DNA of 64,000 nt. Source: Aureliella helgolandensis. Lineage in GTDB: Bacteria > Planctomycetota > Planctomycetia > Pirellulales > Pirellulaceae. Position 1 is the first letter of the stretch; the number at the start of each line of letters is the position of its first letter. Under the pieces are notes generated by a model. It ran no database searches, had not been told where the DNA came from, and worked only from the letters and a program-made list of their open reading frames with translations. The translations under genes and the position numbers were made by a program. The DNA is taken from the NCBI RefSeq assembly GCF_007752135.1, contig NZ_CP036298.1:2790001-2854000 (forward strand). The letters run 5' to 3'. This document shows, piece after piece, positions 51,856 to 60,937 of the stretch.

Positions 51856-54800
51856 CTACTTGAGCGAGTTCAAATAGGCGAGTAGATCTCGCAATTCGCG
51901 AAGCGACATCTTTTTGACGAGATCCGCAGGCATGGAGGATTGGCCCTTCTTGCGTGCAATCACCTCAGCCGGATCGACTGAGATTGATTTTCCTTCCGCG
52001 TCCATCAACACCAGTTCTTCGTCGGTCTCACTGCGTAAGATTCCCGAGACAACACTGTCATCATCCATCAGAAGAACTACGGTTTCGAAGTTCTCGGCAA
52101 TTTTGGCGTCGGGGCTGACGATGGCTTCTAGCAGGTAGCGTGCATCTTTGGTTGCGGCGGTCTTGGTGAGCTCCGGACCAACCTCTCCGCCGACCTCGCC
52201 CACGCGGTGGCAGCGGACGCACGACAGTTCGGTTTTGGTCATAAACAACAGCTCTCCACGCTCTCGATCTCCGCCCGCGAGCACGGCTCTGTATTCCTCG
52301 AGCGGTTGAGCTTCGGTTTGTGCCTTCGCAAACTGACTCAACGCATCTGAGAGCGATTCACCGACGCGATCCTTGGAAGCCTCAAGGACGTTGAGCCACA
52401 CGTCGGGAGGAAGGTTGCCTTTCAAGTAATCCTCTAGCCCCTGTTCGATCAACGCGTTTGCTTCTGGTAATTCGATCGAGGCCAGCGTGTCCCAGGCCAT
52501 TTGCCGTTCGATCGCAACCTCTGACTGGATTCCCTTCTCAAGTGCTCCTGTGGCTTTCTCGGGCGCGATTCCGGCGAGTTGTTTGACAGCTTCGGCACGC
52601 ACCAAAGGCGTCTTGTCCGTGATTAAACGCTTCAGCAATACCTCCGATTCTTGTTGGTTCAACGCCACAAAACCGATCAGGGCTAGGCGACGGAGTTTGT
52701 CAGGATTCTCGCGATCAACCACTAGATCGCGCAGGCGGGCCGCGACGTTTTCTAGCTTAAGAGTCACGGCGGCTTCCAGCACTGCGTCGCGCAGTTTGGC
52801 AGGGCCAGCGAGCAGTTCGGTAAATGCATTCTCCAGTTCTGCGGCAGCGTCAAGATCGGCGCGATCCTCTAGGGGGGCAAAGCGATTCATCACTCGATCC
52901 AGCTTGCCAGGTGTGCCCCACGACGCCAACATTTTTACCGCCTCGACGCGCATGTCCAACAGATGACTTTTTCCGACCGCATAGTGCAAGACCTGTGCTG
53001 CAGCACCAGCGCCACCGAGACGGAAGTTCGCGTTCAGTACGCGGTGAACTAACGGGCTGGGGCTAGACGATCCCAACTCGAGAGCGGCGATGTTGGGAAG
53101 CAGTTCGTGCAACTCCTCGACATCGTGAATGGCTCGCACCGCTTCGGTAACAACTCCGATATCGGCGTCCCCGAGGAACGCGCGGATTTCTGGCGCATTG
53201 CGTTTGCGAAGTGCAACCACTGCCGCCAGCCGCACCGATCGCGACGCGTGCTTAGCCAAAGCGACGATATCCTGGGTCTGAGGTAGACCTGCCAAGGCCA
53301 TGATGCCAGCATGTCGCAAGCCGGGGTCTCGATCTTGATTGTTTTCCAACATGTCGCAAACCGGTGCGATGGCAGACGCTAAACCGAGCTTTCCGGAAGC
53401 CAGACATGCCGCGTACTGCACGCGAGGTTCCGTATCAGCGATGTGTTCAACAATTTGTGCACTGAGGGCACGCAACTGCAGATCGCCAGCCACGTTGGCT
53501 GCCGCCGCTCGCACATCCAGGTCCGTATCCGACAGGGCAACGCGAATTGCAGGGATGACTTGATCGACCAGTTCTGGTGTGAGTCTGGCTGCATGGCCAA
53601 GTCCCCAGGTGGCATGAAGCCGAGGCAGCGTGCCAGCCGCGGAATCTTGAAGCAGCGCAAGCATACCTGCAATTTCTCCGCGATGCGCCAACTCCCACTG
53701 GGCCTCCAATCGAATGCGTCGGTCCAGGTGGCTAAGGAGTTCGTTGAGTCGTGTCTGGGGGAGTTCGGTGAAACCAGCTCCTAGCAAGGATTTCACTTCG
53801 CGAACAACCTCTTGCTGCTGAGCCTTCGGGTCGAAGAAGCGGTAGATCCTCCCTTTGCCTTCCCCCACCCAGCCATTGACCCAGTCGCAGACCCACAGGG
53901 CTCCATCCGGGCCGAATTGTGCGTCGGTGGCCAGGATGTTCCAGATGGGTTGTTCACTGCGTTCAACTTCCCAGAATGCCCCCTTGGGCTGGGTGCGAAT
54001 TAAGCGAATACCACTGTTGCTGGCGCCGCCGCGGAAGTCGACTAGAAAGAAGCAATTGGCGAAATCACCAGTAAGCCCTGTTCCAGGGTAGCAGCTCAAG
54101 CCAGAGGGACCGTCGCTAATGTTCTCGATGGGAGGCACGATGTAGGCAGGTGTTTCCTCAGAAAAGGGATGCCAGATCTTCTCGCGGTTGAAGGGGCCTC
54201 GATCGGGCAAGTATTGATACATCATCCGCCAACCGGTATCACCACCTTCCATCACATTGACCCAACGAGCCTTGTCTCCGCTGTCGGAGTTGTTATCTCC
54301 CGTGAAGAGATAGCCGTAATCATCGAAGGCTAGTTCCTGAGGATTCCTGAGTCCTGTGGCAAAAACCTCTAGATTCGAACCGTCCAATTCGCAGCGGAAA
54401 ACGGCCCCGCTCTCGGTGTTCTTCAGCTGGCCATCCTCGGTTTGAATGTTGTAGCCACGATCTCCGATGCTGAAATAGAGTCGACCGTCATGGCCAATGA
54501 TCAAGCCATGGGAATCGTGCCCTCGGAAGGCCACTCGCACTCCGTAGCCGTCTTGGAGTGCCTCGCGGCTGTCCGCCACACCGTCGTCATCTCGGTCTCG
54601 CATCAGCCAAAGCTTAGGAATGCAGGTAAAGTAGACGTCGTCGCCGCGCACCAAGACGCCCGCCCCAGTACCTTCTTCAAGCCGGTTGAAGCCGTCGGCA
54701 AACACGGTGGCGCGATCGGCGACTCCATCTCCGTTGGTGTCCTCCAGACGACGAATGCGGTCATCGTGGGCCGTGTATTCGGCTGCTTCGGAGCCGAGTA

Positions 54801-55296
54801 AACGCAAGTGGTAATCGATTCGATCTTGGACGGATTGGGACGCCAAATCGGCGAGCAACCACTCGTTGTCATGTCCTCGATTGTCAGTCACGCCGCGATC
54901 TTGTCGAAACGACTCGCATACAAAAACTCGCCCCGAATCGTCGACATACATGGCAACGGGATTCGCGAGCTCGGGTTCGGCCGCCCACAGTTTAACTTCC
55001 CATCCCTCGGGCTTTCGGAAGCTTCCGACCGCCAAAGCGCCCTCCTCCGAGGCCTCGACCGGCCTATCGGCGGCCAAGCTGCCGTCACCACTCTCCGTTT
55101 CGGTCTCATCGGCTGATGCAATTGGGGGCTCCTGAACCGCGCAGGAAATGGCCAACAATGCTACCCAGAAGCACAGTAGCCGTTGGAACCAAGGCCAAGT
55201 TGTGCGGCACGCTACCAGGCAATTTGCCGGGGACGGTGGAGAACTCGATCTCAAAACCCACTGCGGGGAAACGAAGTGTTGCGAAAAAATACTCAA
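51856..55296 (-). CDS. PVC-type CxxCH cytochrome with beta-propeller and HEAT repeats
   Basis: The 1146-aa protein is exported (WFQRLLCFWVALLAISCAV signal) and belongs to the planctomycete/PVC membrane-bound dehydrogenase-type family. Order: sorbosone/glucose-dehydrogenase-like six-bladed propeller (about 80-480; VAMYVDDSGRVFVCES, GLRNPQELAFDDYGYLFTGD, GADGALWVCDWVNGW-like), then HEAT repeats (about 520-960), then a C-terminal cytochrome c domain with CVRCH at about 1026-1030 and ending LRELRDLLAYLNSLK. One heme is expected. It is probably a periplasmic redox or sugar-oxidising protein. The start is TTG at 55296. It is divergent from mnmD. Confidence 0.9.
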   Translation of the reverse strand: MSIFSQHFVSPQWVLRSSSPPSPANCLVACRTTWPWFQRLLCFWVALLAISCAVQEPPIASADETETESGDGSLAADRPVEASEEGALAVGSFRKPEGWEVKLWAAEPELANPVAMYVDDSGRVFVCESFRQDRGVTDNRGHDNEWLLADLASQSVQDRIDYHLRLLGSEAAEYTAHDDRIRRLEDTNGDGVADRATVFADGFNRLEEGTGAGVLVRGDDVYFTCIPKLWLMRDRDDDGVADSREALQDGYGVRVAFRGHDSHGLIIGHDGRLYFSIGDRGYNIQTEDGQLKNTESGAVFRCELDGSNLEVFATGLRNPQELAFDDYGYLFTGDNNSDSGDKARWVNVMEGGDTGWRMMYQYLPDRGPFNREKIWHPFSEETPAYIVPPIENISDGPSGLSCYPGTGLTGDFANCFFLVDFRGGASNSGIRLIRTQPKGAFWEVERSEQPIWNILATDAQFGPDGALWVCDWVNGWVGEGKGRIYRFFDPKAQQQEVVREVKSLLGAGFTELPQTRLNELLSHLDRRIRLEAQWELAHRGEIAGMLALLQDSAAGTLPRLHATWGLGHAARLTPELVDQVIPAIRVALSDTDLDVRAAAANVAGDLQLRALSAQIVEHIADTEPRVQYAACLASGKLGLASAIAPVCDMLENNQDRDPGLRHAGIMALAGLPQTQDIVALAKHASRSVRLAAVVALRKRNAPEIRAFLGDADIGVVTEAVRAIHDVEELHELLPNIAALELGSSSPSPLVHRVLNANFRLGGAGAAAQVLHYAVGKSHLLDMRVEAVKMLASWGTPGKLDRVMNRFAPLEDRADLDAAAELENAFTELLAGPAKLRDAVLEAAVTLKLENVAARLRDLVVDRENPDKLRRLALIGFVALNQQESEVLLKRLITDKTPLVRAEAVKQLAGIAPEKATGALEKGIQSEVAIERQMAWDTLASIELPEANALIEQGLEDYLKGNLPPDVWLNVLEASKDRVGESLSDALSQFAKAQTEAQPLEEYRAVLAGGDRERGELLFMTKTELSCVRCHRVGEVGGEVGPELTKTAATKDARYLLEAIVSPDAKIAENFETVVLLMDDDSVVSGILRSETDEELVLMDAEGKSISVDPAEVIARKKGQSSMPADLVKKMSLRELRDLLAYLNSLK

Positions 55297-56376: not shown

Positions 56377-57804
56377 ATGCAAAGTTGGCAAAACATCATT
56401 CAACGACGTTTCCATTCACGCTTGGTGTTGATCGTTTGCGGCGTTGTGTGCGCAACGAGTTCCTATGCCGCCGCACAAGGTCCGGGGGGAGGAGGCGGTG
56501 GAGGTGGAGCAGCCGCTCCGGCCTTCAACGATCCCAAATTTCGCGATCGAGTGTGGGAAGCTGGTGGGCCACGTCTGAGTGGCTTGCACACCGGCAAACT
56601 TGTAAAAGCGGTTGTAATCAAGGGGAATGAGACTGTCAGCCAGCATAAAATCTTGTCGCACATGCAGACCCGTGTGGACCGCAATTACGACGAGCGGCAG
56701 CTTCAATCTGATATTCACGCGCTGTATGGCACGGAGCTGTTTCGAACAATTACCCCTAAGTTCATAGACTACAAGGACGGGGTGGTCGTCGAGTTGCTGG
56801 TGGTTGAGAATCCCACCGTCACGGAGGTGGTGTTTCATGGCAATACTCGACTCGATGAATCGATGCTGAGCAAGCACTGTGGCATCAAAGTTGGGGATCC
56901 CGCCAACCCGTTTTCCGTGGATATGGCTAGGCAGCGCTTGGTCGATTTGTATTTGGAAAAGGGATTGAATCAGGTGGCGATCGAGGTGCGCGAGGGCAAT
57001 CGCAAGGATGACCGTCGCGTCTTCTTTGATATCTATGAGGGGCCGGTCGAGCGAGTCTGGGATATCAAACTGATTGGAAACTCCGTCTTTTCCACTTCGC
57101 TGCTCAAAACCAAAATTCGCTCGAAGGACGCCCGCGGTGGTGCGACTCCCTACATGGGCAACGTCGCCAACTGGGAAAAATTTGACAACGATAAAACGAT
57201 CCTCGTCGCTTACTACCGATCGCTGGGATACTTCCAAGCCAAAGTTGATTACTTCTACGACTACTACGACGACGGGAACTTTCTGGACCTGACGTTCGTG
57301 ATCAGCGAAGGGCAACAATACAAAGTTCGCAACGTGACGATTGTCGGGAACCATTACGAGCCCTTTACGACGGAAGTCTTGATGGCCGCCCTGGAAACGA
57401 AAGCGGGAGATGCTTTCAACCTCGGCAGAATGAGTCGAGACCAACGCAAGTTACGCAACGATTACTATGGCCGTGAAGGCTTTGTATTCGTCGACATTGT
57501 GCCTGAGCCGCGTTTTTTAGACGAACCGGGAATGCTGGATCTCGTGTTTAAGATTAACGAGGGAGATCGCTACCGAGCAGGTGAGATTAATGTCCATATC
57601 GAAGGGGACTCCAGCCATACCGCTCACAACGTTGTCTTGAACATGATGGGAATTCGAGAGGGTCAATTTATTGACTTGAAGGAACTCGAGGACTCGGAAC
57701 GGCGTTTGAAGGCCAGCCAAATATTTGAATCGAACCCGGCGATGGGCGAACCACCACGGATTGAAGTTCGACCACCCGATGCACAAGATTTAGAAGAGTT
57801 TTGA
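56377..57804 (+). CDS. POTRA-only half of a BamA-like outer-membrane assembly protein
   Basis: The 475-aa exported protein has a signal (RLVLIVCGVVCATSSYAAAQ) and a Gly-rich spacer, then five POTRA domains with the VxxxxxxGN start: VKAVVIKGNETV, VTEVVFHGNTRL, VWDIKLIGNSVF, VRNVTIVGNHYE and AGEINVHIEGDS. Five is the number in canonical BamA. The protein ends directly after the fifth (RIEVRPPD) with no beta-barrel; the barrel is encoded by the next gene. BamA inserts outer-membrane beta-barrels. The ATG at 56377 has AGGGAA about 9 bases upstream. Confidence 0.88.
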   Translation: MQSWQNIIQRRFHSRLVLIVCGVVCATSSYAAAQGPGGGGGGGGAAAPAFNDPKFRDRVWEAGGPRLSGLHTGKLVKAVVIKGNETVSQHKILSHMQTRVDRNYDERQLQSDIHALYGTELFRTITPKFIDYKDGVVVELLVVENPTVTEVVFHGNTRLDESMLSKHCGIKVGDPANPFSVDMARQRLVDLYLEKGLNQVAIEVREGNRKDDRRVFFDIYEGPVERVWDIKLIGNSVFSTSLLKTKIRSKDARGGATPYMGNVANWEKFDNDKTILVAYYRSLGYFQAKVDYFYDYYDDGNFLDLTFVISEGQQYKVRNVTIVGNHYEPFTTEVLMAALETKAGDAFNLGRMSRDQRKLRNDYYGREGFVFVDIVPEPRFLDEPGMLDLVFKINEGDRYRAGEINVHIEGDSSHTAHNVVLNMMGIREGQFIDLKELEDSERRLKASQIFESNPAMGEPPRIEVRPPDAQDLEEF

Positions 57805-57866
57805 TTCGTGTGCCAGAGAACCAAAGCATCTACCACCTTGCGCGTCGCATGATTTTAGGAAACCCA

Positions 57867-59822
57867 ATGAGACAGGACGTCTTAAACACGAAACCATCGG
57901 GCTGGGGCCCGCTGTGCGCCACGTTAATCTTGGGTGGACTGTGTCTGGCTGCAACCGGATGTCGCATGGCGCATACCCCGGCGATCAGTGACGACTACGA
58001 TTTACCGACCAGCAAATATCGCTCGGGTACCGGCAGCGGTGGCGACGACGTTGCGACGTATGAAGCGGCTAATCCATCAGCCAGCCATTCACTGCAGAGC
58101 CAACTCGTTAAGTCACCCGCAGTACCTGACACTGGCGTGGGAGAGAACGCTAGCGAAGCTTCCCAGGCAGTATCCACGATGCGGTCGCCGTCGAGCACAT
58201 CGCCAGCGGTCACAACCGCTTCGGCAACGATTCGAGGACAGTCGCCCGACCAATGGAATGGTGCGACTGCTGGAGGGACGGATCTCTACCGAACTCCGAT
58301 GCAAGCCAGTCAGCCGAGTGCCACTGGCCCACCTGCAGCCAGTCCAGCCACCAACAATTGGTACGCGCCGCAGACGGGCCCTGGAACTCCTGTGCAATAC
58401 ACGGCTCCAGCACAGCCTGCTACGCAAGCAGCCCCCTATTCCGGCAATCCCTATGGAACGCCTGCAACCGGGCAAGTACTGCCTCCACCGACGGTGGGAA
58501 CTGGGAACTCGTTACCTCCACCGACCAACTATGGCTCACCCAACTACGGCTACGGATCGCCGGGTAGTTATCAGGGCGGCGGCTTGCTGGCCTCGCCAAG
58601 CGACTACGGAGCAACCCTTGCTCCGGGTGCGAGCTCCGTCCCCTACGACAACAATGGTTCCCTCGTGGCGCCAGGATCGGTTCCCAATTTTGATCCCACG
58701 ATTGGCATCACCGCTCCATCACTGAATCGCAACCAGCCTCGTGAGCGAACGTCGCCTTTGGACGTTTACGTGACGGAAGGCCGAACCGGACGCATTACGC
58801 TGGGCGGCTCCGTCAATAGTGACCTCGGAGTGGCAGGCCAGCTGGTTATTGATGAACGCAATTTCGATATTCGGCGGTTTCCACGAAATTGGGACGATCT
58901 TTGGTCGGGAAGAGCCTTTCGTGGATACGGTCAGACGTTCCGCGCAGAAATCATGCCGGGAACCCAAGTCGAACGCTACACCGTTAGTTGGAGCGAACGA
59001 AATTTGTTCGGATATCTGCCCTACAGCTTAACCGTGGGGGGATTCCTCTACTCTCGGCAATACCGAGACTGGACGGAGCAACGATTGGGGGGACGCGTTT
59101 CCTTGGGATACGAAATCACCAAGGATATTGCACTGAGCGGCGAGATACGGATGGAAGACGTCAAACTGTACGACCCTCGCATTGCCGGAGTCGCTGAGCT
59201 GGACGATTCGATTGGCAGTACCGATCTTTACACGGCTCGTGCTCGATTGGCTCGGGATACCCGCGACAGTCCTTTCATGGCAACCGAGGGTGGGTTGCTA
59301 GAGGTCATCGTCGACCAGGTCTTTGGTGAACGGGATTATACCCGTGGTCAGGTGAACATCAGTCGTTACTTCCTTATCCACGAACGCCCTGATCAGGGGG
59401 GCCGCCACACGTTGGCAAGTACTTGGAAGTTCGGCTTCACCGGTTCGGATACCCCAATTTTCGAAAACTACTTCGCGGGGGGCTATAGCACCATGCGTGG
59501 TTTCAGCTTTCGCGGAGCCAGCCCCAAAGTGGGCGATGTGCAGGTTGGGGGCGAATTCATGTTCCTAGGGAGCCTCGAATACGTGTTCCCTCTAACTGCT
59601 GACGAGATGTTGCGCGGCGTCGCCTTTGTGGATTACGGCACGATTGAGCAAGAAATCGAGATCGATGCCGACAATTTCCGGGTCGCTCCGGGGCTAGGCC
59701 TCCGCGTTTCGGTTCCGGCTCTGGGACCAGCACCACTCGCCTTTGATTTTGCCGTCCCGGTCGCCTACGCCGATTCGGATGACCGCCAGATCTTCAGCTT
59801 CTTCATGGGCATGACACGCTAG
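57867..59822 (+). CDS. Lipobox protein with Pro/Gly-rich linker and BamA-type (Omp85) beta-barrel
   Basis: The 651-aa protein starts with a signal and a lipobox-like LAATGCR. A Pro/Ser/Gly/Thr-rich linker of about 280 residues follows. The C-terminal about 360 residues form an Omp85/surface-antigen barrel: ERYTVSWSERNLFGYLPYSL, ALSGEIRMEDVKLY, an YSTMRGFSFRGASPK segment equivalent to the Omp85 VRGF loop, EFMFLGSLEYVFPL, and a final strand ending with aromatic residues (DDRQIFSFFMGMTR). No POTRA domain is present. The ATG at 57867 has AGGA 6 bases upstream; a TTG at 57801 would overlap the previous stop. Together with the previous gene it is a split BamA. Confidence 0.88.
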   Translation: MRQDVLNTKPSGWGPLCATLILGGLCLAATGCRMAHTPAISDDYDLPTSKYRSGTGSGGDDVATYEAANPSASHSLQSQLVKSPAVPDTGVGENASEASQAVSTMRSPSSTSPAVTTASATIRGQSPDQWNGATAGGTDLYRTPMQASQPSATGPPAASPATNNWYAPQTGPGTPVQYTAPAQPATQAAPYSGNPYGTPATGQVLPPPTVGTGNSLPPPTNYGSPNYGYGSPGSYQGGGLLASPSDYGATLAPGASSVPYDNNGSLVAPGSVPNFDPTIGITAPSLNRNQPRERTSPLDVYVTEGRTGRITLGGSVNSDLGVAGQLVIDERNFDIRRFPRNWDDLWSGRAFRGYGQTFRAEIMPGTQVERYTVSWSERNLFGYLPYSLTVGGFLYSRQYRDWTEQRLGGRVSLGYEITKDIALSGEIRMEDVKLYDPRIAGVAELDDSIGSTDLYTARARLARDTRDSPFMATEGGLLEVIVDQVFGERDYTRGQVNISRYFLIHERPDQGGRHTLASTWKFGFTGSDTPIFENYFAGGYSTMRGFSFRGASPKVGDVQVGGEFMFLGSLEYVFPLTADEMLRGVAFVDYGTIEQEIEIDADNFRVAPGLGLRVSVPALGPAPLAFDFAVPVAYADSDDRQIFSFFMGMTR

Positions 59823-60170
59823 GTTCGCAACGCACCGAGGGCGACTCATCGTGAGCGCACTCGGATGGAGCGGGTGGGAATCGTCCTTCCACCGCCCAAA
59901 CCCTGCACTCGGATTAGAATTTCTTCAGCTCCATATTTCCCAGTCTCTAAGCCATCTGACCGCTTGGGGAAGCAAAAGGCTAAGCCAGGCAGAAGCCATT
60001 GGGATTCTACCCTCTCCCCCTGGAGCTGGCCGTTCAAGAGTTGCTAGCATCGCGGCTAGGTAAAGGTGGATGGCACCTATCGAGAATTTCTTTTGGGCCC
60101 CCTCCGCAGGTGTGCAGGCTGGAATGCTTGCAATCCGCAATGATTGCGTAGGATGGCGAAAAATGGGTGG

Positions 60171-60188
60171 CACCTATCGAGATAGGTG
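60171..60188. repeat. REP-like hairpin, copy 1
   Basis: CACCTATC-GA-GATAGGTG is a perfect 8-bp inverted repeat with a 2-base loop. It recurs exactly 295 bp later. The GGTGGCACC surroundings look like REP-type sequences. Confidence 0.7.
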
Positions 60189-60465
60189 GGTGGCACCTTT
60201 GGGGCGATCTGAAAGATGGGTGGTACCTATCGACACCTTCTCTACGCCATCTGACCGCTTGGGGAGGCAAAAGACTAAGCCAGTCAGAAGCCATTGGGAT
60301 TCTACCCTCTCCCCCTGGAGCTGGCCGTTCAAGAGTTGCTAGCATCGCGGCTAGGTAAAGGTGGATGGCACCTATCGAGAATTTCTTTCGGGCCCCCTCC
60401 GCAGGTGTGCAGGCTGGAATGCTTGCAATCCGCAATGATTGCGTAGGACGGCGAAAAATGGGTGG

Positions 60466-60483
60466 CACCTATCGAGATAGGTG
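60466..60483. repeat. REP-like hairpin, copy 2
   Basis: Identical to the hairpin at 60171-60188, inside the second unit of the tandem duplication. Confidence 0.7.
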
Positions 60484-60500
60484 GGTGGCACTTTTCGGGC

Positions 60501-60937
60501 GTTGAGGACTGGGAGAGGCCACTGAAACTTTAATGATTGTGGTCGTTTGGGTGATAGAGGTGGTCTAGGTTGAGGATTCTAGCCCGCATAATCGGTAGGA
60601 TCGCAAAAAAGGGAGCTGTTTAGGAACTTGGAGCGGGTCGACATCGTCAGAGTCCGACTGCGTTTCGTTGACACTTGCGGGAGTGGAATTAGAATCGAGG
60701 CTGCCTTTTCCCACTAGGCTGCCTGGTTTACCTGTATTCCCAGTGATGCAGTGCTTACCTACAGCGTTCCGTGGAACGTGCAAAACTGGCGGTTCGTACC
60801 ATTTTGGTAGCTCCGCAGCTCCGGTCCGCAGAATTTTTCACTAAGATTTTGTCGCATTGAGGCTGCCGAGTGCTCGAGTCTCCCCCCCGAATAACGCTTC
60901 TCATTATTGGCCGTTCGACCCAGCAGAGGACTAAAAC
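60501..60937. other. Intergenic upstream of the metzincin-like giant
   Basis: About 437 bp, presumably holding the promoter. A minus-strand frame at 60565-60783 is not supported as a gene. Confidence 0.45.

Follow-up and report, generated by a model that had tools for sequence, protein, structure and literature searches.

The locus described here raises the question of whether BamA, the core of outer-membrane protein insertion, has to be a single polypeptide in which an arm of POTRA domains continues directly into a β-barrel. How this arm is coupled to the barrel is a central question for the whole machine, and in the planctomycete Aureliella helgolandensis the two parts are encoded separately. 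In the window analysed, i.e. a stretch of 64,000 nucleotides (assembly GCF_007752135.1, contig NZ_CP036298.1, positions 2,790,001 to 2,854,000 of the forward strand; coordinates below are those of the window), one gene encodes a POTRA protein and the following gene an Omp85 barrel protein. This pair is, with high probability, a two-chain BamA. To the fuller statement that the two chains are the cell's BamA and are joined by a strand of the barrel chain that completes the fifth POTRA domain (POTRA5), we assign a probability of about 0.68.

A POTRA gene and a barrel gene in place of bamA

The two genes lie on the same strand in different frames, with the following features:

56377–57804, + strand: POTRA gene of the split BamA, 475 amino acids (open reading frame; five Pfam POTRA matches; positions 2–372 of 741 of the TIGR03303 profile)
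Residues 1–33 of the POTRA protein, + strand: signal peptide (signal and cleavage site judged by eye from the sequence)
56599–57558, + strand: POTRA1 to POTRA4, each a complete β-α-α-β-β unit (AlphaFold, model residues 42–361)
57574–57774, + strand: incomplete POTRA5 with β1, α1, α2 and β2 (PRIEVRP), without β3 (Pfam; model helices; strands named via alignment)
57805–57866, + strand: intergenic gap of 62 bp with AGGA at 57857–57860 (sequence)
57867–59822, + strand: barrel gene of the split BamA, 651 amino acids (open reading frame; Pfam Omp85, 3.5e-43; positions 419–739 of 741 of the TIGR03303 profile)
57867–57962, + strand: lipoprotein-type signal peptide, lipobox-type LAATG followed by Cys32 (sequence)
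57963–58754, + strand: linker of 264 residues rich in Pro, Gly, Ser and Thr (sequence)
58233–58250, + strand: conserved RGQSPD motif in the linker (pattern search; linkers of relatives)
58755–58778, + strand: PLDVYVTE, counterpart of POTRA5 β3 of one-piece BamA (alignments; strand 656–665 in the model of a fused relative)
58779–59819, + strand: Omp85 β-barrel domain with the MRGF motif at 59493–59504 (open reading frame, Pfam, aligned barrels)

The original prediction, made from the sequence alone, had described a first gene with exactly five POTRA domains and a second one, starting within 65 bp, for an Omp85 barrel with an MRGF loop, no POTRA domain and a signal, a lipobox-like LAATGC and a long linker of its own. 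The spacing is confirmed: both open reading frames are present and the gap is 62 bp, because the best start of the barrel gene is the ATG at 57867, which is preceded by the AGGA and followed by codons for MRQDV, a sequence that recurs near the N-termini of two related barrels (L061 and L065; L and G numbers denote loci and genomes). The signal and the linker were also described correctly, with the LAATG standing directly before Cys32 (codon 57960–57962). Pfam returned a single match for the barrel protein, Omp85 at residues 373–671 of the longest open reading frame, with no POTRA match, and the RGF columns do not vary among the 18 aligned barrels. What needs correction is that the protein is not entirely devoid of POTRA, since the folded portion opens with PLDVYVTE, which aligns with the closing strand of POTRA5 in one-piece BamAs. 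The count of five POTRA domains holds for stretches matched by Pfam, but the fifth is incomplete, covering only positions 5–50 of the 79-position profile, whereas the other four cover 76–79 positions. A scan for promoters and terminators yielded nothing that exceeded shuffled sequences.

For each half, the NCBIfam model that matches best is BamA. Against TIGR03303, the BamA equivalog profile (741 positions), the POTRA protein scores 221 bits and the barrel protein 127.8 bits; neither reaches the cut-off of 297.15, but summed they give 348.8, and the fused BamA of Aeoliella straminimaris (L128) gives 366.1. The genome, a single contig of 8.44 Mb that is 99.82% complete, contains one Omp85 match at E-values up to 1, i.e. 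the barrel gene, and its only POTRA (PF07244) matches are the five in the POTRA gene; a second, unsplit BamA was thus sought and not found. The barrel with its RGF motif, the five POTRA stretches and the status of sole Omp85 protein of the genome are features of BamA. The POTRA domains and the barrel do not, however, reside in one polypeptide: there are two genes with two signals in different frames, and the pair is therefore classified as a two-chain variant rather than an ordinary BamA.

Other identities within the Omp85 family fit less well. TamA is defined by three POTRA domains and a TamB partner, and was rejected since five POTRA stretches are present and the Pfam model of TamB has no match in the genome at E 0.01. 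TamL (NF052279), which we take to be the 'Lipo' subfamily, was rejected because the lipobox sits on the chain that is free of POTRA domains; matches to TamL are weak. Barrels of the noNterm subfamily have no N-terminal extension at all, and this identity was rejected because a signal, the 264-residue linker and the POTRA5 strand all precede the barrel. BamD-type (YfiO) matches are present in the genome, in long open reading frames (459–1103 amino acids). The Pfam model of LptD also has no match at E 0.01, but may simply be too distant; LptD is reported by BLAST in relatives in the available text of Speth et al. 2012 (PMC3422733).

The break appears to fall within POTRA5

Where the chain is interrupted can be read from relatives in which it is not. 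In eight one-piece BamAs without a linker from elsewhere in the phylum, POTRA5 β2-β3 runs on into the barrel, with 17–25 residues between the two profile matches. In 50 fused relatives that carry a linker, this distance is 58–438 residues (median 220), and the linker is located inside POTRA5, between β2 and β3. In alignments, the split barrel proteins resume after their linkers at the counterpart of β3, with PLDVYVTEGRTG in the window and NLIVEVREGRTG in L170; the match between the pre-barrel strand of the window protein and VDVNYSVEE of PDB entry 9pxj amounts to only 1.0 bit but is collinear. The POTRA protein of the window ends shortly past β2, and in some relatives a tail of up to 120 residues extends beyond the profile end. 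As the barrel chain begins at β3 and the POTRA chain ends soon after β2, the gene break, judged from the sequences, appears to run through one small domain, POTRA5. The idea of a BamA divided into a POTRA protein and a barrel protein is therefore right with respect to the two genes, but the cut is inside POTRA5 and not between POTRA5 and the barrel. The position of β2 was taken from chain order, as this short strand was misplaced in the POTRA chains of the MAFFT alignment, and a strict pattern for the pre-barrel strand, found in 38 of the 56 split rows and in 30 of the 58 fused ones, proved too narrow when 20 of the 46 misses were inspected and was not relied upon.

AlphaFold models were obtained for the POTRA protein of the window (35-sequence alignment) and for the fused L128 protein (32 sequences), and for both the best PDB matches are BamA. 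Modelled alone, as had been proposed with the original prediction, the POTRA protein (mean predicted local distance difference test score, pLDDT, 86.3) shows POTRA1 to POTRA4 complete, but POTRA5 without a sheet: there are two helices, no strand of at least three residues and only isolated bridge residues. In the L128 model (mean pLDDT 72.1), POTRA5 has β1 at 357–366 and β2 at 418–422, residues 429–651 have a pLDDT below 50, and an ordered strand at 656–665 (EVDVFVDLQE) then leads into the barrel. The known POTRA fold and the joint appearance of these strands suggest that 656–665 pairs with POTRA5 in the model. In a POTRA sheet, β3 is the central strand. With the break passing through POTRA5, the two halves may therefore have to rebuild this domain together.

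The split is old and conserved

The original prediction had asked whether other planctomycete genomes hold such a pair. Among loci from 40 near genomes, 24 of the 25 same-family genomes (that of the window included) have POTRA and barrel genes adjacent on the same strand, with a few pairs interrupted by contig ends (L043, L046, L075); the one that departs from this is G014. In the other families of the order, 15 genomes were covered: 11 have a fused gene, three a split one (G026, G027, G032) and one (G028) no match. A wider search covered the 149 family genomes that are at least 90% complete. Among the matches listed, an Omp85 match occurs in 146, a POTRA-protein match in 147 and both in 145 of them; the barrel frames are all 432–720 amino acids long, and the POTRA frames reach at most 671 except in G433 (738), G387 (931) and G389 (1109), where the barrels are in frames of other lengths (537, 550, 582 and 508). 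Because frame lengths differ, both parts share one frame in no family genome among these matches, a conclusion drawn from frame lengths with positions only partly compared.

The best 80 of 485 loci from the species genome collection comprise 38 split loci, 38 fused ones and four barrel fragments at contig ends. Split loci include those of Rhodopirellula, Rubripirellula, Stieleria, Aporhodopirellula, Pirellula and Blastopirellula (NORP48), and fused ones those of Aeoliella, Adhaeretor and Gimesia. Three metagenome-assembled genomes labelled Blastopirellula or Rhodopirellula (L123, L132, L133) are fused and fall outside the main split clade, so their names may be unreliable. Splits elsewhere in the phylum were also considered, using eight genomes (G042, G053, G057, G088, G094, G175, G186, G301) with frames of 513–707 amino acids, among the shortest in the matches listed for 292 wider-phylum genomes. 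All eight frames hold POTRA and barrel together, and these candidates were rejected; a short frame alone is thus no proof of a split.

One gene, probably broken more than once

In a tree of 114 concatenated POTRA and barrel rows, of which 56 are split and 58 fused, with the eight BamAs without linker as its root, most split rows (51) fall into a single clade with support 100, and five are placed elsewhere (L126 with L143, support 100; L039 with L047, support 97; and L050). Parsimony on this tree needs four changes, two of them forced by strongly supported branches, and an approximately unbiased (AU) test rejects a single origin of all split rows (p 0.0023). With a mixture model and 61 hand-chosen rows of the 114, a single origin is again rejected (p 0.0009); three changes are needed on this second tree, in which L050 and L039 with L047 are not separated from the main clade. 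The two trees are quick ones and exclude loci that are too short (L043, L046, L075, L081, L105, L116, L153) or have no POTRA in the locus (L073, L108, L130, L139, L146), and 12 further loci more than 97% identical were merged beforehand. We read these changes as fissions: both the outgroups and the Pirellulales rows that branch deepest in the 114-row tree are fused, and no hydrophobic, signal-peptide-like relic was found in the fused linkers. The rooted trees and the AU tests together point to at least two breaks of a single gene.

Signals, linker motif and duplicated barrels

Among 60 split barrels (the 56 split rows of the tree together with L043, L046, L075 and L081), 49 including that of the window carry a lipobox-type signal, 47 of them recognized by rule and two (L083, L174) by eye. 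Outside the main clade such a signal is found in L039, L047, L050 and L126, with a type-I-like one in L143. The barrel chain of the window is probably lipid-anchored at Cys32.

The linkers share a motif, R[GA]Q[SN][PS], which occurs in 38 of 56 split rows (the open frame upstream of the start being included in the count), in 37 of 50 linker-bearing fused rows and in none of the eight rows without linker. Shuffled sequences would contribute 0.27 and 0.25 occurrences in the split and fused rows, i.e. 0.5 against 75 of 106 combined. RGQSPD in its CGN-Arg form occurs once in the entire 8.44-Mb genome, in the barrel gene. RGQSP-type motifs may be located on either chain, and some pairs, e.g. L038 and L064, have one copy on each; that RGQSPD is a docking site is a guess.

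Some loci have a second barrel gene behind the first, next to a single POTRA gene (L058, L071, L093, L107), and the family search found two nearby barrel matches with one POTRA match in G010, G389, G418, G430 and G441 (in G451 there are two barrels, but no POTRA match reaches the threshold). In the barrel tree, the second copies of L058 and L071 lie apart from those of L093 and L107, and at least two duplications of the barrel alone are therefore probable. As this happened beside a single POTRA gene in two sub-lineages, one may imagine halves that dock by reversible strand exchange at POTRA5, so that one POTRA arm could serve several barrels in a modular machine with switchable assembly; we regard this as a speculation with the odds well against it. 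The barrel of L073 (genome G014) has a type-I-like signal and clusters with the second barrel copies of L058 and L071. A weak second Omp85 match of 40 bits in a one-contig genome (L074, G020:C1:5046488-5047015) shows no POTRA or barrel profile match.

Elsewhere in the window, a 263-bp direct duplication (97%) and a 30-nucleotide unit in seven partial copies are located just downstream of the barrel gene (59944–60501). A large protein encoded at 51856–55296 on the − strand, with matches to DUF7133, HEAT and cytochrome c, has no relation to BamA.

How the two chains may be held together

In the mechanism that we favour, the cell's only BamA would be made as two exported chains, with the POTRA chain going to the periplasm and the barrel chain to the outer membrane, where it would be lipid-anchored, probably at Cys32. 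The chains would join because the barrel chain holds β3 of POTRA5 (PLDVYVTE) just before its first barrel strand; by completing the POTRA5 sheet, this strand would place the POTRA arm beneath the barrel as in ordinary BamA, and the assembled pair would presumably carry out BAM activity. In its history, the turn between β2 and β3 of POTRA5 may have grown in ancestors into a long disordered linker, within which the gene then broke more than once, with the barrel half gaining an export signal.

Several observations weigh against this mechanism or limit it. The L128 model is a surrogate, in which strand pairing was judged from secondary structure and not from coordinates. A different strand or partner might help POTRA5 of the window protein to form, and a strand-like IDLxVxG stretch that follows RGQSPD in many fused and some split POTRA parts is a possible alternative β3; its counterpart is, however, disordered in the L128 model, which thus does not support such a duplicate as the true POTRA5 strand, and is absent from the window protein. 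(In fused linkers, e.g. L072, L135 and L142, IDLxLxG is seen soon after RGQSPD, perhaps as a copy of POTRA5 β3.) In G014, no POTRA gene lies within the fetched 5 kb around the barrel gene, and in some draft family genomes, e.g. G351, G354, G378 and G442, the two matches are on different contigs. Type-I-like signals in 11 of the 60 split barrels show that the lipobox is not universal, and lipidation is therefore not essential to a two-chain scheme. Finally, the trees do not settle the number of fissions past two.

A two-chain BamA could also be held together otherwise, by Bam lipoproteins, RGQSP motifs or contacts between POTRA domains and barrel, with POTRA5 remaining open or borrowing another strand. 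The retention of the RGQSP-type motif on either chain in otherwise variable linkers would fit such a tether, as would the BamD-type matches, though these are in long frames. Yet between POTRA5 β2 and the barrel, the L128 model has no well-ordered strand other than the pre-barrel one, and without it, in the POTRA chain of the window, β1 and β2 of POTRA5 are no longer modelled as strands; we consider another tether unlikely. As a further alternative, the barrel protein could serve another kind of Omp85 machine (a TamA-like one or a translocase) while the POTRA protein works separately. Omp85 proteins that lack POTRA domains (noNterm) are known, and extra barrel copies do exist in some Pirellulaceae; but the genome offers neither another BamA candidate nor, at E 0.01, a TamB match, BamA is the best model for both halves and the split rows nest among fused BamAs, which leaves this explanation very improbable.

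Frameshifts are common in metagenome-assembled genomes generally, and a one-piece gene might present a similar picture if it were frameshifted, decayed to a pseudogene or misassembled. The different frames, the 62-bp gap, the signal that each gene has of its own and the family-wide recurrence of the pair, including isolates such as Stieleria and Aporhodopirellula, rule this out for all practical purposes, conservation being in effect a refutation; the original prediction was right to set a simple frameshift aside. A rival history, compatible with strand complementation at POTRA5, would have an ancestor within the order split once and several lineages re-fused. Parsimony counts alone leave the direction unfixed, but with fused outgroups, fused deepest rows and linkers free of signal-like relics we judge re-fusion to be quite improbable.

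Comparison with known systems

Among the open-licence papers listed in literature searches, no title or abstract opening concerns a split BamA, and nothing useful was found on BAM-hinge constructs. The available text of Speth et al. 2012 (PMC3422733) lists BamA for Pirellula staleyi and Blastopirellula marina and contains neither 'POTRA' nor 'split'; that of Heinz and Lithgow 2014 (PMC4104836) has no instance of 'planctomyc', and a split BamA is not mentioned in the accessible parts of PMC8871954, PMC8567305, PMC13067283 and PMC1586193. In Planctopirus limnophila, bamA is reported as essential in the part of PMC10632474 that was available.

Overall, a whole bacterial family, cultured genera included, appears to run BamA without a peptide bond between arm and barrel. 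It serves as a natural test of the importance of this bond, with arm and barrel open to separate depletion, swapping and cross-linking. Repeated fission inside one domain would, moreover, teach how an essential machine can come apart into two pieces.

Heinz and Lithgow 2014 (PMC4104836) distinguish, in the text available, ten Omp85 subfamilies including noNterm. Like the barrel of the window, noNterm proteins have no N-terminal POTRA domains, but the window pair has a dedicated POTRA protein next door and its barrel retains a POTRA5 strand. A lipid-anchored N-terminus, predicted for the window protein, is shared with 'Lipo' (PMC4104836) and TamL (NF052279); on the same partial basis, the 'Lipo' anchor of Bacteroidetes and Chlorobi precedes three POTRA domains in one chain, whereas that of the window precedes the linker and the barrel.

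BamA of Escherichia coli and Neisseria (TIGR03303; PDB 5d0o, 4k3b, 9pxj) has the same plan of five POTRA domains and a barrel in the same order and provides the best profile and fold matches, but it is one chain without a long linker, whereas BamA of the window consists of two chains with the break inside POTRA5. The direct relatives are the one-piece BamAs of Aeoliella, Adhaeretor and Gimesia (Planctomycetia), which share the linker, the RGQ motif and the pre-barrel strand in a single chain. For the way in which the halves may join, the closest analogy is donor-strand complementation in chaperone–usher pili: there, too, a strand of one chain completes a domain of another, although the proteins are unrelated and the strand here would have come from the splitting of a gene.

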